A stretch of 52,496 nucleotides of DNA from Deltaproteobacteria bacterium. Lineage in GTDB: Bacteria; Desulfobacterota; Binatia; UBA12015. The position numbers and the translations under genes are program-made. Under the pieces are notes generated by a model that ran no database searches, was not told the DNA's origin, and saw nothing but the letters and a program-made list of their open reading frames with translations. This document shows, piece by piece, positions 694 through 25,100 of this stretch (positions are counted from its first letter, which is position 1; every line of letters starts with the position of its first letter). The stretch covers positions 1 to 52,496 of the forward strand of contig VGTG01000017.1 in assembly GCA_016874795.1 (NCBI GenBank), given 5' to 3'.

Positions 694-906
694 GGTTCGT
701 TTCCTTTCTCCTTGGGAATCGGCGCTGCTCGAGGTCGCGCCCCGGCAGGCGGATCTTGTGCACGCTGCGCCCGCCGCCGCGCCTCCCCTGACCTGGGGGG
801 AACCCCGAGAAGAGCCGCGCCTGTCCCTGAGGTCTGATCCTCCTTGCGCGGGTACTTACGGAGGACGCCCGCGCTGGCCGTGCGGCGTAGTAGTGTCTTC
901 ACCGCA

Positions 907-1602
907 ATGGCCTCCTTTCGAGTCGTCCTCATCGACGATCACAATCTGGTGCGCGCGGGAATGCGCGCGCTCGTCGAGAAGCTGTCCGGCATCGAGGTCG
1001 TGGGCGAAGCGGGTGACGGGCGCGAAGCGCTGGCGATCGTCGAGACGAGCAAACCCGATCTCGTGCTGATGGATCTCTCGATGCCGGGGTTCAATGGAGT
1101 CGAGGCGACCGCAAGGATCGGCAAGGCTTCACCGGGAACGCGCGTGATCATCGTCTCCGTGCACGGCGATCCTCAGTCCGTTCTCGCCGCGATCGACGCG
1201 GGTGCGAAGGGCTACATGTCGAAGGACGCGAGCGTCGCCGAGCTCGACCTCGCGGTGAAGGCGGTGATGCGCGGCGGGACGTACCTCTCTCCGAGCATCT
1301 CGCAGCACGTCGTCGACGACTACCGGCGTCGCACCGTCGACGGCGTCACCGCTCCGGGAACGCCCTCGTTCGGCTCGGCCGATCGCGCGCGGCTTGCGCG
1401 CTTGACGCCACGCCAGCGGGAGGTCCTCCAGCTCCTGGCGGAGGGCGCCTCGTCTCGAAAGATGGCGCGGGTGCTGAAGCTCAGCGTCAAGACGATCGAG
1501 ACCCACCGCGCACTGCTGATGGAGCGTCTCGACATCCACGACGTCGCGGGGCTCGTCCGGTTCGCGATCCGGGCGGGCGTCGTGCGCTCGGACGACGCAT
1601 GA
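907..1602 (+). CDS. NarL/FixJ-family response regulator, 231 aa
   Basis: Two-domain response regulator. The receiver domain (about 4-120) has the acidic pair D10/D11, phospho-acceptor D56 in LVLMDLSMPG, and the conserved Lys K106 in KGYMSKD. A LuxR-type helix-turn-helix follows (about 165-225) with LTPRQREVLQLLAEGASSRK and SVKTIETHRALLMERL. I chose the ATG at 907 because MASFRVVLIDDH is the normal receiver start; an in-frame extension to 844 adds 21 residues without homology. The stop overlaps the next start (ATGA at 1599-1602), so the downstream exported protein is translationally coupled. The HisKA_3 kinase at 4228-6495 is of the class that pairs with NarL-type regulators, so it is the likely partner although two genes intervene. 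Confidence 0.93.
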   Translation: MASFRVVLIDDHNLVRAGMRALVEKLSGIEVVGEAGDGREALAIVETSKPDLVLMDLSMPGFNGVEATARIGKASPGTRVIIVSVHGDPQSVLAAIDAGAKGYMSKDASVAELDLAVKAVMRGGTYLSPSISQHVVDDYRRRTVDGVTAPGTPSFGSADRARLARLTPRQREVLQLLAEGASSRKMARVLKLSVKTIETHRALLMERLDIHDVAGLVRFAIRAGVVRSDDA

Positions 1603-2687
1603 GGACGGCCGAATCGGTACTCGCCTGGAGGGCTCCGGAGGGGTGCGCTCGGGGCGTGCTCCTCCGACTCCTCCGCACCTCGTTCCTCGTCACCTCGATG
1701 GTCCTGCCGATCGCGGGCGCCGCGCACGCGGCGAAGTGGAAAGCGTGCCCCTCGGGGCCGCTCCCCGTGTACCGATCGGCCCTGGGCGCGACCGCGGCGC
1801 CGTTCATCCATCCGTCGCACGAGCTCCGGATCCTCCTGAACTCCGCGCAGGTCGCTTCGGGTGGCGGCTTCAGCGTCGAGCCGAAGGGCAACCTCGTCGA
1901 GATCACGTTTGCGTCGCTCTTCGGCGAGCCGATCTCGCTCGCGTCGCGTCGCGTCGCCGCGGCGAGCCCGGGGACGTTGACGTTTCCCTTCCCCGACACG
2001 ACGGCGGAGGTCGGCCGCCCGCTCGCCGGTCCCGTCGAGATCCGTGTCACGAAGGGAGAGAAGGTCGTCGCCCGGATCGATCCGCAGGATCTCGTGGCGC
2101 TGCCGCCGGCGATCGACGTGACCTCGATGCTGCTCGGGGAGACGCCGCGTCAAGTCGTCTACGGCGCATTGTCCGCCGACGGCGATCTCTGGGTGCCCGC
2201 GCTCTTCAACGGTGACCCGATGCCGATGCCCGGCTGTCCCGGCGACTTCATGATGCCGATGCCGATCGAAATCGGTGCGGCGACGATTCCCGGCCTCGTG
2301 GTCCAGGGCGCGGAGCCTCTCGCGCGGATCCGGCGCATGAGCCTCTATCTCGGCGACATGGACATCGGCGGGACGAGCTTCTACGGGATGCTCTTCTCGA
2401 ACCGCATCTCGCTCGTGCACGCGGGCGGGACGCGCGGCGTCACGCTCTGCCAGATGAACGATTCGATCGATCTGGTGCTGCGCGTGAAGGGCAGTCGCGC
2501 GTGGTCGCGCTCCAAGCGGTCGCCGATGCGCGAGGTCGTCCTCGATGCGGCCCCGATCCCGCTCCTCTTGAAGGGCGCGAAGTCGATGCCAGAAACGGCG
2601 AAGGCCCTCTGGATCGGCGAGGACAGCTTCGGCAATAGCTGCGAGCCGACGCCGCCGACCCTCGACGTCACTCCCGGGAAGCCCTGA
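1599..2687 (+). CDS. Exported protein, 362 aa, function unknown
   Basis: The start ATG overlaps the stop of the response regulator (ATGA). After a charged N-terminal stretch, a hydrophobic segment (about 25-42, FLVTSMVLPIAGAAHA) ends in an AHA-A type signal peptidase site. The mature part is about 320 aa with a beta-rich look and a few cysteines (C50, a CPGD near 212, CQM near 288, a C near the end). A methionine/proline patch, GDPMPMPGCPGDFMMPMP, lies near residue 210; a metal-binding role is possible but is speculation. I do not recognise a family. Coupling to the regulator suggests an accessory or output role in that signalling system. The 3' end overlaps the convergent lnt gene by 20 bp. 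Confidence 0.7.
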   Translation: MRTAESVLAWRAPEGCARGVLLRLLRTSFLVTSMVLPIAGAAHAAKWKACPSGPLPVYRSALGATAAPFIHPSHELRILLNSAQVASGGGFSVEPKGNLVEITFASLFGEPISLASRRVAAASPGTLTFPFPDTTAEVGRPLAGPVEIRVTKGEKVVARIDPQDLVALPPAIDVTSMLLGETPRQVVYGALSADGDLWVPALFNGDPMPMPGCPGDFMMPMPIEIGAATIPGLVVQGAEPLARIRRMSLYLGDMDIGGTSFYGMLFSNRISLVHAGGTRGVTLCQMNDSIDLVLRVKGSRAWSRSKRSPMREVVLDAAPIPLLLKGAKSMPETAKALWIGEDSFGNSCEPTPPTLDVTPGKP

Positions 2688-4209
2688 CCGGAGCTTCTTG
2701 CCTCCAGGCAAGCACGCCGCGCGCCGTCGCCAGGACCGCGACGACCCAGCACAGCGCGAGAAGCGGCGAAGCCCAGCGTACGGCGGGAGCCGGCTCGGGC
2801 GGTCCGACCTCGAGCTGGGTGACGCCGTCCTTCGGGCGCGCGACGTCGCGTCCGTAGCGATCGATCGCGAGGCTCTCGCCGCGGTTCGCCGCGCGGAGCA
2901 CCGGCAGCCCGGTCTCGACCGCGCGAAGTCGCGCCTCGGCGACTTCGATGTCGATGGCGCTCGAAGGAAGCTCCGCGTCGTTCGTCTGGATCAGGATCGC
3001 ATCCGCGCCGCCGGCGGCGAGCTCGCGTGCGAGCTCGGGGCGGTCGGCCTCGAAGCAGATCAGGATCCCGATCCGACATCCGCCGGCGCGCATCCACGCG
3101 GGCTCGCTCCCCGCGACGACGTCCTCGGCCGCGAGCCAACCCGGGCGCGAGACGAGCGACGTCGGCCACGACTCCGCGAACGGTACGAGGGCCCGCTTGT
3201 CGTACGCGACGACGGCTTCCGCTTCGTCGCCGGCGATGCGAAAGACCGAGTTCCGCTCGCGCGGCTCCCAGTCCGCATCGAACTCGAAGCGCGGGCCTCC
3301 CGCGAGGAGGACCGCGCCGGACTCGTTCGAGAGCGCTCGCAGAGCACGCAGGAGCTCCGGATCCTGCAGCGGATCGCGCGGCAACGCCGACTCCGGCTAG
3401 ACGATCGCGTCGGGGCTCGAAGAAGCCGCTCGCCGGCTCGCCTCGACGTAGCGCGCGAGCACCTCGCCCTCTGGAACCTCGGGGCTCGGGATCGACGCGT
3501 CGACGGCGGCGATCGAGCACGATGGATCGTGGGCGGGCTCGCTCGAGCGGAGTCGGATCGCACCGTAGAGCAGCGTCGCGAGCGCGACGACGAGAGCGAA
3601 GGCGGAGGCGAGGGGGAGCGCGAGCGCCGAGCGCGGCGTTCTTTCCCCGCTCTCCGATCGGAGGCGGTGAACCCAAGCGTGTCCGAGCGCGCTCCCGAAG
3701 AGAGCGAGCACGAGCGAGACGCCCGGCGCTCCGCCGAGGCTCGCCGCCTGCAGGACGATCGGGACGTCCGCCTGCGTGGCCGCGAGTCCGATCCAGGGAT
3801 AGAAGGGAAACGAGATGCGCGTGAGACTCTCCCAGGCCACCCAGGCGGCCGCGCTCGCCGCAATCGACCCTGCGCCCGGAGGTCGCGTCGCGGCGCGCAG
3901 CGCGAGCCCGAGGAGCGCTCCCATGGGCAGAGCGGTCGCGCCGCAGAGGACCAGCGCGGCCGGCCACGCGGCGGCCGGCGAAAGCGAAAAGTATCCTGCC
4001 GCGACCTCTGCGAGCCAGGCGGCGTGCACGAGCAGCGCGAGCTCGAGCGCGAACGCCGCACCGAGCACGGCGGCCTCTGTCCACGAGCGTGTCCGACTCG
4101 CGGTGGCAACGAGCGGTGCGCAGACGAGCCACGCGAGCGGCGCTTCGAGGCGGTGCGCCGCGAGAAGCAGCAGTGCGGAAGCGGCCGCGGCCGCGAGCGC
4201 TCGCTTCAA
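2668..4209 (-). pseudogene. lnt: Apolipoprotein N-acyltransferase, interrupted by an amber codon at 271
   Basis: Read through the stop, this is a complete 513-residue Lnt, the inner-membrane enzyme that adds the third acyl chain to lipoproteins. The N-terminal part (codons 1-270) holds the usual bundle of membrane helices; the C-terminal part is the nitrilase-fold periplasmic domain plus a last membrane helix near 480-500. All three catalytic residues are present: Glu at codon 273 (PESALP), Lys at 338 (YDKRALVPFAE), Cys at 385 (ILICFEADRPE), close to E. coli E267/K335/C387. The single defect is TAG at 3397-3399, codon 271, where the family reads WPE(S/T)A. One base change from TGG explains it. 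Without readthrough the first fragment has no catalytic domain, and a restart at TTG 3384 loses the Glu. The start is a TTG at 4209, 18 bp from the divergent kinase start. Confidence 0.88.
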
Positions 4210-4227: not shown

Positions 4228-6495
4228 GTGAGCACGCGTCGCTCCTCGACGCCGGCGCTGCTCGTCACGGCGGCGGTGGTTCTCGCGACCGCGGTCTGCC
4301 TCGTCAACGGAGCGCGACGCATCGGCGAGCCGTTCCCGGGGTTCCTCGTCGCGGAGAACCGGACCGTCTTCTCGATCGGACGAGCGGGCTGGTCCATCGA
4401 GCGCGTCCCGCGCGCGTTCTTCTCGCAGGTCATCGCCGTCGAGCGGCGTCCAATCACGCGTGCGGAGGAAATCCAAGCGGCGATCGCCGACCTGCCCGAG
4501 GGAGCCGAGGTGAATTACCGCTTCCGCATGGGGCCTGACATCTTCGCCGCTCCGGTCACCGTGCAACGCTTCGGCGTCGGCGACTTCTTCGCGGTCTACG
4601 GCACCTACGCCGCCGTCGGTCTCGTCTTCGCGCTGGCCGGCCTGTGGGCCTGGCTGCGCCTGGCCGGAGCGGCGCGCGCTTCGATCCTTCCCTTCTTCGT
4701 CCTCTGCCAGGCGGTCGGGTTCGCTCTCGGCACGGCGGGCGACGTCTACGGGCCGTACTGGCTCGTGCCGCTCTACTTCGCGGCGCAATGCGTGACGTTC
4801 GCGAGCCTCGTGCACCTGGCGGTGAGCTACCCGCAGCCGCTCGGCGTCGGCTCGCGCTGGCGTCCCGTCGGCCTCGGGCTCCTGTACGCTGCGGCGCTCG
4901 CGCTCGCCGTGGGACTCGTGGCGACGGGCGAGGACGTCTTCCTCTACGTGCCGCTGCTCTACGTCATGTATCTTTTGCTTGCCAACGCGATCTTCCTCTA
5001 CCTCGGCGCGCTCGCGATGGGGTTCCCGGCGGCCGAGAGCGAGGCACGTGGGGGCCTGCGCTGGGCGCTCGCCGGAGCGCTCGCGGTCGTCGTCCTCCCG
5101 GCGATGATCTTCCTCGTCTATCCGATCCTGCGGCAGAGCATCTCGCCCACCGTGCTCGTCGGCCCGCTGGCCCTCTTTCCGCTGCTGACGGCTTCGGCGC
5201 TCGCGCGAGACGCTCCGGAGAAGCCGCAGCCGCGGACCTCGGTTCGTCTTCGCCTGGCGATCCTCTTCCTCGGAGCGGTGGAGACTTCGTTCCTGATCGC
5301 GGTCGCGGTGTTCTGGCAGAACAACAGCTGGGCGCAGCTCCTCGACGACTTGACGCTGAACCAGCGTCAGCAGGCGACCGTGGAGCAGGTGCTCGCGGAG
5401 GGGGCCTCGGCCGCGAACGGCGCGGGACTCGCGCGTCTCGCGGGGCTCGTCCAGACCGAGCCCGAGAGCCGCCTCGCGTCCGCGGCGGGCGAGGCGCTCC
5501 GCAGCGGCGACAGGGACGCGGCGCAGCGGGAGCTCGCGGCCCTGGGCCGGATCTACGACGAGCACGCGCTCCGGCTCGAAGCGCGCAGGCGCTGGATCGG
5601 CGGGCTCGGCGTTCCGGTCCTCGCCGGACTTCTGCTCATCGCGGTGCTGCAAGCCGTCGCGTTCATGCTCGCGATTCGACGCTGGCTGATCGGCCCGCTC
5701 GACCGCGTCGCTGCTGCGACGAGCGTGATCGCGACGGGCGACCTCGCACACCGCCTCGAGCCGGAGCGCAGCGAGGAGTTCTCGCGGCTCGGCGGTGCGG
5801 TGAACGCGATGGCCGCTTCGCTGCAGGCGATCCAGCGTCGCGTCGAGCTCGCACGAGCCGCGCGCCAGCGTGCCGCCGGCGCGGCGCGCGACGCCGAGCG
5901 ACGTCGCCTCGCGCGCGAGCTGCACGACGGGATTCTGCAGGACCTGAGCGCCGTGCGGCTCGGTCTCGAGAGCCGCGAGCCCATCGCGGGCGAAAGCAGC
6001 GCGGCCGGCGTGGTTGGCGCAATCTCCGGCGTGATCGCGGCGATCCGCGCCGTCGTCGACGACCTTCGCCCACCGGCGCTCCGCGGGGGCTCGCTCGAGG
6101 AAGCGATCGCAGGACACGCACGCGTCCTCGCCTGGGCACAGGGGATCGAGCTGTCGCTCGACCTCCCTGGAGCGGAGACCGTGCCGGAGTGGGCGGCGCG
6201 CGACCTCTACCGGATCGCGCAGGAAGCGACGGCGAACGCGCTCCGCCACGCGAGCGCGAAACGGATCTGGATCCGCCTCGTCCGCGAGGGAGGGGACACG
6301 ATCCTCGAGGTCGAGGACGACGGCGTCGGCTTCGACGTCGAGACGAGCTCGCTCGGAAGCGGTGTCCAGGGGATGCGCGAGCGCGCCGCGATCCTCGGCG
6401 CGGAGCTCGACCTTGGCCGCCGTGAGAAGGGCGGCACGCGTGTCCGTCTCATCCTGCGCTTGCAGACGCCACCGCCCGCGACGGATCCGGCGTGA
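4228..6495 (+). CDS. Membrane sensor histidine kinase, HisKA_3 type, 755 aa
   Basis: Starts at GTG 4228. One N-terminal membrane helix (about 12-30) is followed by a roughly 95-residue extracytoplasmic domain with a PDZ-like look (SQVIAVERRPITRAEEIQAA), then a block of about seven membrane helices (130-335), another helix (about 340-360), a short periplasmic helical segment, a final helix and HAMP (about 455-540). The dimerisation motif RRRLARELHDGILQDLSA carries H566. The HATPase part shows an N-box (YRIAQEATANALRHA), a G1 box (VEDDGVGFD) and GSGVQGMRERAAIL. This matches NarX/DesK-class kinases that phosphorylate NarL-type regulators; the regulator at 907-1602 is the obvious candidate. It diverges from lnt with only 18 bp between starts, so each promoter must lie inside the other gene. 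Confidence 0.85.
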   Translation: MSTRRSSTPALLVTAAVVLATAVCLVNGARRIGEPFPGFLVAENRTVFSIGRAGWSIERVPRAFFSQVIAVERRPITRAEEIQAAIADLPEGAEVNYRFRMGPDIFAAPVTVQRFGVGDFFAVYGTYAAVGLVFALAGLWAWLRLAGAARASILPFFVLCQAVGFALGTAGDVYGPYWLVPLYFAAQCVTFASLVHLAVSYPQPLGVGSRWRPVGLGLLYAAALALAVGLVATGEDVFLYVPLLYVMYLLLANAIFLYLGALAMGFPAAESEARGGLRWALAGALAVVVLPAMIFLVYPILRQSISPTVLVGPLALFPLLTASALARDAPEKPQPRTSVRLRLAILFLGAVETSFLIAVAVFWQNNSWAQLLDDLTLNQRQQATVEQVLAEGASAANGAGLARLAGLVQTEPESRLASAAGEALRSGDRDAAQRELAALGRIYDEHALRLEARRRWIGGLGVPVLAGLLLIAVLQAVAFMLAIRRWLIGPLDRVAAATSVIATGDLAHRLEPERSEEFSRLGGAVNAMAASLQAIQRRVELARAARQRAAGAARDAERRRLARELHDGILQDLSAVRLGLESREPIAGESSAAGVVGAISGVIAAIRAVVDDLRPPALRGGSLEEAIAGHARVLAWAQGIELSLDLPGAETVPEWAARDLYRIAQEATANALRHASAKRIWIRLVREGGDTILEVEDDGVGFDVETSSLGSGVQGMRERAAILGAELDLGRREKGGTRVRLILRLQTPPPATDPA

Positions 6496-22143: not shown

Positions 22144-25100
22144 TCACGGCCCGACGACGTCCACCAGCACGGGCGCGCCGAAGGTCCTGTCGGGCTTCTT
22201 CTCGCCGCAGCCCTTGTCGAGCAGGGGCTTCGCCGGGTAGGGATCGACTTCGCCTGGCGGCGTCACCGTCCGCGGGCAAACGTCGTCCGCGGGGTGGGCG
22301 TCGGACCCGCCGAGCGGAGTGTGGTCGACACGTGCCGAGACCGAGAAGTCCGTGTGCCCGGTGCCCTTCGCCGGATCGTTGGCGCAGTCGAAGGTCACGT
22401 CGAACAGGAGCTTCCGCTTCTTGCCCGGTTTCAACGTGATCGGCTTGGGCTTCTTCGGCACCCGGAAGGTCGCGCTCGCGTCCGCGCACGCGCCGCTGGA
22501 ATCGACGGTGACGTCGACCAGCGCGGCGAGCGTCGCGACGTCGGGAATGGTTTCGACGAGGCGGCTGCGGTTCTGGATCTCGACCGCGACGGTGACCGTC
22601 TTGGCGGGCTGCGTCGTCGTCAGCTTGACGGTCTTCGGAGCCTTCAGCTTGACGGTCTTCGGAGCCTTCAGCTTGGTGATCGCGAGATCGTTCTCGGTGC
22701 CGCAGACCGTGAGCGCGCGCGCGACGTCGGCGGTGACGGGCACCGCCTCGGTGTTGTCCACGACGTCGCGAGCGACGCTGTAGAAGGCGTAGCCGTTGCC
22801 GCTCGTTCCCTCGTAGACGGCGGAGGTCGCGGTCGTGTTCTCCTGCCAGCGCGTGAAGGACCCGCCGTTCACCGACACGAAGACGGAGTAGTCGGTGATG
22901 ATCGACCCCTCGTCGGTGCCCGACCAGTTGACGGTGATGCTCGTGTCGCAGGCGTCGTCGACGTCGGCGGACGTGACCGCGCTCACCGGCGGGGTTTTGT
23001 CGATCGTGTTCGACACCTCCGGCGTCTCGATCGGCGCGTTCACGTCGAACACGATCGACGCCTTGTTCTTGATCACCGTGCCGGTCGCGACCGTCGACTT
23101 CGCCGCGACCGTGAAGAACACGCGGCCTTCGCCGTCGGGCGGATTCGTGTTCGGCGGCAGGAAGCCGGCAGCGGCATCGTCGGTCAGCTGCATGGTTTCG
23201 GGATCGAGGGACGTGAACGTTCAGGTCACCACGCCGGTCTGCGCATCGAGGTGCGCGTCGACCAGCACGATGAGGTCGTTCCCGGGACGGAGGTCGGCAC
23301 CACCGTGGAACTCCGCCAGGCCCTGCGGCGGGACGGTCGTGATGTTTGCACCGACCGAGATCGGGCCGAAGCTGAACGTCGAGAGATCGAGCGAGGCGGT
23401 GTCGAGCTGATCGATGATCTGCACGACCTGCGCGGCGCCGGTCGCCTCGGGCTTGTTCTCGAAGGCGATGGCGTACTTCAACGGCTCGTCGCCGGTGACG
23501 ACGTGCTCCGGACCGGAGCCGGCCGAGGGTGTCTTGTCGTTCGGGTCGACCGAATTAAGGATCGGAATGGGACGGCAGTCGGGGTCGCTGTAGAAGGGAT
23601 TCGGGATGATGGGGCAGCCGTTGCTCGGGTGCGGGACGCATTGCGTGCCGTCGTCGGACAGACGGTGCCTGCCCATTTCGCGGCACTCGGCGGGCGTGAT
23701 GCCGGGTTTCGGCGGGTTCGGCGGCCCCGGGGGCGGTTTCGGTTCGCAATTGTCACACCTGCATCCGCCTTCGGGGAGGGGACCGTCGGCGCACGTGCAG
23801 GCAGCGCACACCGCGGCGTGCGCCGTGTCGACGACGGGCGCGAGGAAGGCGAAGAAGCGGTCGAGCGGCGCACCCCAGCGTGAGCGAGCCGTCGTCTGGT
23901 CGGCCATGAAGGCCGCGAGATCGATGGTGATGTGCCCGACGCTGTAGAGCGAGCGGACATCCCCCCGCAGCGCCACCAGCTCGGCGCGTCCGCCGGCAGC
24001 GATGGCTTCGAGCTGCATGCGCGCGTACGTGACCGCCGCCGCGTCGACGCTTCCCGGCACCGGCGTCCCGAACGAGCGCTCGGCGTACGCGCGCGCGCCG
24101 CGCACGAGCTCGGCGACCGTGGCATCGCGCCTCGCCTCGTCACCGAGCATCGGCTCGGTCGCCATCTTCACGGCCACGAGGAACTGCTCACCGTGCGGGA
24201 CGCCCACGGGCAGCGTGAGGAGATAGTCGATGGTGCCGGTGAACCCGGCGGGCACGACGGGCAGAAGCAGGGGGATGCTGAGGAGGTCGCTCGCCGTGTC
24301 GACGGCGGCGGCGATCGGCACGGTGCGGAAGTCGTTGAACGACTGAGAAGGTGACTCGGGCGGTGCAGCAATCGCGAAGAGCGGGTCGAAGAGAAAGTCC
24401 TTCGGCAGTACGAGGGTCAGCGGCACGTCGGCCGCATCGACGTTGCCGCGGTTGCCATAGATGATCGTGAAGCGCACCGGCGGACCGGCGCGAATCGCGC
24501 TCCGGCTGATGATGTCAGACCAGAGCTGCGGCTCGCGCGTGGCCTCGACCGTGAACGCCGCTGGCAGGGTCACGGGCGCACCGCCGCCGGGGTTCGTGAC
24601 CGTCACGTCCCAGGCGCCGAGCGCACGGCCGGCGAGGTCGAAGCTCGTCGCGAGCGACGCACCGGCGGACTCGACGTTCACGGGCGTGCCGGCGACGTCG
24701 GCCTCGCCGCTCCGGCTGAGCGTCACCGTCGCCCCTTTCTCGAAGCCGCTACCGCTGAGGATGACGGCGAGAGGGCCGGCATTGCCGGCGCGCGCCGGCG
24801 CGATCTTCGTCACGGCGAGCGACCCGCCGCGCTCGAACGCGCCGATGTCGCACCGCGCTCCGATCGGCCGCAGGACGGCGCGCTGATCGATCGCGGGGCA
24901 CGCGAGCCCGCCGCTCGCCGGATCCGCGGGGTTGGCGGCGTCGATGGCCGGGCTCGCGGGAGCGGCGCCGCTCGCGCCGAGCGGGGCGTGCGTCCGCGTC
25001 GGTCCGCCGTTGTCGGCGAGCTCGCCGAGGCGGGCCGAGACGTTGAGGACATTGCCGGTCGTGTCCCCGCTGAGCGGACAGGAACTGTTGAAGACGCCGA

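Follow-up and report, generated by a model that had tools for sequence, protein, structure and literature searches.

An amber codon at a conserved tryptophan in one of five Lnt-like genes of a Deltaproteobacteria (Binatia) genome

Background

Lnt proteins (TIGR00546) are single uninterrupted polypeptides with an LNT_N domain followed by a CN_hydrolase domain, and carry Glu, Lys and Cys at family positions. For the E. coli enzyme, PMC5500890 gives the triad as E267-K335-C387 and reports E267A to be inactive. Two described situations are close to a gene of this type with an in-frame stop. Ordinary nonsense-interrupted genes combine a one-base stop with intact relatives and other paralogues in the genome, whereas in stop-codon recoding, such as pyrrolysine at TAG and selenocysteine at TGA, the in-frame stop has conserved coding sequence on both sides. 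The window analysed here is a stretch of 52,496 nucleotides from a metagenome assembly and contains an lnt-like frame that shares features with both. A literature search returned no publication on this locus, from which absence from print is not claimed.

Results

The lnt-like frame and its internal stop

The minus-strand frame from 4209 to 2668 was lnt-like and contained one internal stop, a TAG at codon 271 (3399-3397; CTA on the plus strand), before ending in TGA at codon 514. Its features are as follows.

2668-4209, minus strand: lnt-like frame of 514 codons, both stop codons counted, with a membrane domain and a nitrilase-type domain
3397-3399, minus strand: TAG, codon 271, aligned with Trp (TGG) in the other homologues
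3391-3393, minus strand: Glu, codon 273, as translated, downstream of the stop, at the position that catalytic Glu267 has in the E. coli enzyme
3382-3384, minus strand: TTG, codon 276, the earliest restart codon after the stop, already beyond Glu273

Re-reading bore out the sequence-only reading, which had described this frame with the TAG as its lone break. The frame starts at TTG 4209, homologue L122 having Met one residue further in, and only 8 of 2000 base shuffles of it (<1%) had one internal stop or none. The part before the stop matched LNT_N (PF20154; 59.5 bits versus a cut-off of 27.1) and the part behind it CN_hydrolase (PF00795; 47.6 bits versus a cut-off of 23.2), while in NCBIfam the two covered complementary portions of the lnt model TIGR00546, positions 7-200 for the first and 221-394 for the second, neither of them reaching the model's 132.9-bit cut-off by itself. 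The window frame thus has the domain layout of Lnt, with Glu273 (from the translation), Lys338 and Cys385 at the family positions and, as had been claimed, near the E. coli numbering (E267, K335, C387; PMC5500890). It differs from Lnt in that the TAG, two codons before Glu273, breaks the single polypeptide.

Translation would end after 270 residues, ahead of the catalytic Glu. The truncated product would keep the membrane domain and lose the entire catalytic nitrilase part, and the window copy, judged by its predicted product, would be null for N-acylation. An open frame of 238 aa does run from TTG 3384, and a split enzyme might be imagined in which a C-terminal part restarted there cooperates with the 270-aa membrane part. 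However, this codon lies past Glu273, so the general base would be in neither piece; E267A of E. coli Lnt is reported to be inactive (PMC5500890), and none of the homologues read is split, all of which makes such cooperation extremely unlikely.

Conservation of the tryptophan at the stop site

The residue aligned with codon 271 was Trp, encoded by TGG, at 33 of 33 homologue loci from the window genome and related genomes, and also in three further homologues read separately (L122, L123 and L136), giving 36/36 for a set made up of the stronger matches in a longer list, the weaker ones being left out. All 36 were uninterrupted and in none was an unrelated split seen at this site, in agreement with the earlier claim that the family has Trp at this codon, one base away from TAG. 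Other stops were flagged in the match list, those in G000:C59 and G045:C160 being at the protein end; G005:C13 carries a flagged TGA. By alignment, Trp-Pro-Glu occupies the site in the solved Lnt structures 5n6m and 5vrg, which we take to be the Pseudomonas aeruginosa and E. coli enzymes, respectively.

Stop-codon recoding

Like recoded genes, the window gene keeps conserved coding sequence to either side of its in-frame stop, and the conserved frame downstream of the stop would fit readthrough (by a suppressor tRNA, pyrrolysine or leaky termination) to a full-length Lnt. The genome also has one recoding system, a tRNA-Sec gene (L139, 1501-1597; G000:C75:2721-2813) that reads TGA, not TAG, on the basis of which it probably makes selenoproteins.

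The genome nevertheless differs from known TAG-recoding systems. The anticodon CUA was found in 0 of 44 genome tRNAs (RF00005 search, all 44 typed by ARAGORN), a count to be read with the facts that RF00005 missed tRNA-Sec, later found with RF01852, so that a very odd tRNA might likewise escape, that the 44 anticodons do not include Ile GAT, a sign that either the assembly or the search lacks some tRNAs, and that the assembly, in 360 contigs, is 96.72% complete. The top match to PylS in the genome reached 26.5 bits versus a cut-off of 178.15. TAG accounted for 72 of the 261 gene-end-like stops in an 852-kb sample and is an ordinary terminator. Control domains gave no hint of in-frame TAG in many genes, all 112 AMP-binding and ABC matches being free of stops, and the relatives have Trp at the site. 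Pyrrolysine or a CUA suppressor is rejected on the results for tRNAs, PylS and TAG usage, and the amber suppression proposed earlier found no support. Since other interrupted genes in the genome have TGA, at Trp and at Cys, one recoding rule cannot fit them all, and readthrough in general appears very improbable.

Other isolated stops in the genome

Stops at conserved residues were also sought elsewhere. The lnt site escaped an initial codon-score scan covering 852,496 bases, and the thresholds were loosened once the scores at that site had been seen. The loosened scan gave 73 sites, 52 of them with at least 5 codons to the next possible start, and a further filter kept 24 including the lnt site; judged by eye, these were gene junctions except for four, namely lnt, window 23223, C19 26515 and C11 28888. 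Pfam homology was applied to the last three, the 20 other kept sites and the 49 dropped sites lying outside it. Being tuned on the lnt site, the survey provides a lower bound, not a rate.

At window 23221-23223 (minus strand, frame 26358-22146), TGA replaces Trp in a DUF7619 protein, whose Pfam domain covers the site in two stretches. TGG was present in all six other aligning copies (seen as 12 rows), and four more loci were unaligned across the site. At G000:C19:26513-26515 (minus strand; L116 and L117), a cytochrome-like protein carries TGA at the second Cys position of its CxxCH haem motif, where all 29 relatives read have Cys; the fragment matched no Pfam family. Selenocysteine as a conserved feature of this TGA was rejected because of the Cys in all 29 relatives and the absence of an unusually stable fold at the site: the 45 bases from the TGA folded no better than elsewhere, 72% of stretches from the same gene being as stable. 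For the window genome alone, selenocysteine there is not strictly excluded.

At C11 28888 (L103, G000:C11:28888, plus strand), a TAG lies between a long glycosidase-like frame and 124 codons resembling its C-terminal domain. No Pfam domain spans this site, and the TAG could mark a fourth interrupted gene or the place where a gene ends.

The lnt, DUF7619 and cytochrome-like sites, three stops with two codons at two residues, indicate a scattered background and not one recoding rule. With two further conserved residues replaced by TGA in 852 kb, isolated stops are background in this genome.

Other Lnt copies and the divergent group

The genome has five LNT_N matches. The four besides the window copy were without internal stop, uninterrupted through the catalytic region and equipped with the Glu-Lys-Cys positions; the one on C46 has Asp two residues after the Cys, where the others have Glu. 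Similarly, the window's was the only one of nine CN_hydrolase matches to hold an internal stop. Another Lnt elsewhere in the genome, suggested by the sequence-only reading, is therefore present four times over, and its expectation that loss of this lnt would matter greatly is not supported, the window copy being one of five. At least one of the remaining Lnt-like proteins would take over housekeeping acylation.

Of the 147 other genomes in the class, 5 had an orthologue of the window Lnt (E <= 1e-40), and the three same-genus genomes gave no match at this threshold. This patchy distribution, with absence from the same genus, indicates that the window copy is dispensable in the clade. Public contigs yielded three loci with a window-type Lnt, labelled as Candidatus Binatia or Deltaproteobacteria assemblies; these add no new genomes, as they correspond to G006, G108 and G103, the last recognised by its identical sequence. 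By sequence comparison, the window copy is a member of a small divergent Lnt group.

NDA(E/Q)LP stands in the window copy and in the orthologues closest to it, those of G006, G112 and G108, in place of the NDAWF of other Lnts. This motif, in the group formed by window 2668-4209 (minus strand) with L007, L122 and L123, hints at a changed active-site rim.

A conserved neighbourhood

Three genes flank the lnt-like frame.

844-1602, plus strand: LuxR-type response regulator, at the same place in G006 with 70% identity
1599-2687, plus strand: 362-aa protein (p362), with a signal-peptide-like N-terminus by eye, convergent with lnt
4228-6495, plus strand: sensor histidine kinase (HAMP, HisKA_3, HATPase_c), with a GTG start by eye, divergent from lnt

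The 362-aa protein had no Pfam match up to E 5 and no NCBIfam match up to E 0.1. Counting the window's own genome, 7 of the 148 genomes in the class had this protein (relatives L133-L138), and Lnt was convergent to it in 7/7. On the far side of Lnt, a relative of the histidine kinase was present in all five other genomes with sufficient contig (G112, G108, G045, G103 and G005), while the G006 contig begins inside the Lnt gene, putting the kinase side out of reach. The kinase match was in two frames in G045, G103 and G005, in which it may be two genes. The response regulator was kept in place in G006 only, G112 and G108 having a weaker match on the other strand. The association of Lnt with a kinase and with an exported protein that belongs to no known family suggests that this Lnt-like enzyme has a specialised partner. 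It might be supposed that low, perhaps regulated, TAG readthrough gives a paralogue dedicated to the kinase and exported protein both a short membrane form and rare full-length enzyme; this we consider even less probable than readthrough as such.

Age and origin of the TAG

No decay was seen behind the stop. Over 251 ungapped C-terminal columns, the window copy was the odd one out at 4 sites, versus 13 for G006, 12 for G112 and 21 for G108, and relative-rate tests on the post-stop part showed no significant difference (chi2 2.28 and 1.48). The lnt-like frame has no second internal stop and the fewest odd-one-out sites of the four copies. This is not the pattern of a gene that died long ago, and the TAG is either a very recent change, one that is still segregating, or an error in the consensus. 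With ordinary nonsense-interrupted genes the window copy shares the one-base stop, intact relatives (TGG in 36/36) and other paralogues in the genome; it differs from them in lacking any other lesion, and is accordingly either very young or an artefact. The collections searched yielded no second genome of this species.

Discussion

The reading that we favour, at a probability of roughly 0.55, is a recent nonsense change in an accessory Lnt, this copy being null for N-acylation and others covering the housekeeping role. On this reading the TAG would be genuine, would have arisen very recently by a one-base change, and would be either fixed in the population sampled or still segregating there. 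In its favour are the Trp (TGG) in 36/36 homologues, the four other intact copies, the patchy orthologues, the other isolated stops in the genome and the lack of decay behind the stop. Against it, the absence of further lesions fits a consensus error equally well, and the keeping of the lnt module in seven genomes speaks for this copy being normally useful.

A consensus or base-call error in the metagenome assembly, living cells having the Trp codon and an intact protein, is a serious alternative to which we give somewhat less than even odds. Of the possibilities offered by the sequence-only reading, it is the one that stays in play beside the other Lnt copies, amber suppression having dropped out. 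The genome is in 360 contigs, both flanks of the stop are conserved as in a working gene, and the 852-kb sample contained two other one-base stops at conserved residues, one on this very contig. On the other hand, the control domains were clean, with no stop in any of 47 AMP-binding or 65 ABC_tran matches (0/112), and the sequence is thus not generally poor. On account of these control domains, a real change is weakly preferred and put slightly ahead of an assembly error. We infer that the TAG is present in the cells, that the shortened protein would be inactive and that another copy would do the essential work.

Taken together, the findings on the interrupted lnt appear to reflect an unremarkable recent gene loss or an error in the sequence, and not a new reading of the genetic code. 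In a metagenome assembly, a lone stop where relatives have a conserved residue does not count as evidence for recoding, particularly in a genome that has others. More interesting than the stop itself is a by-product of the analysis, the conserved module around lnt.
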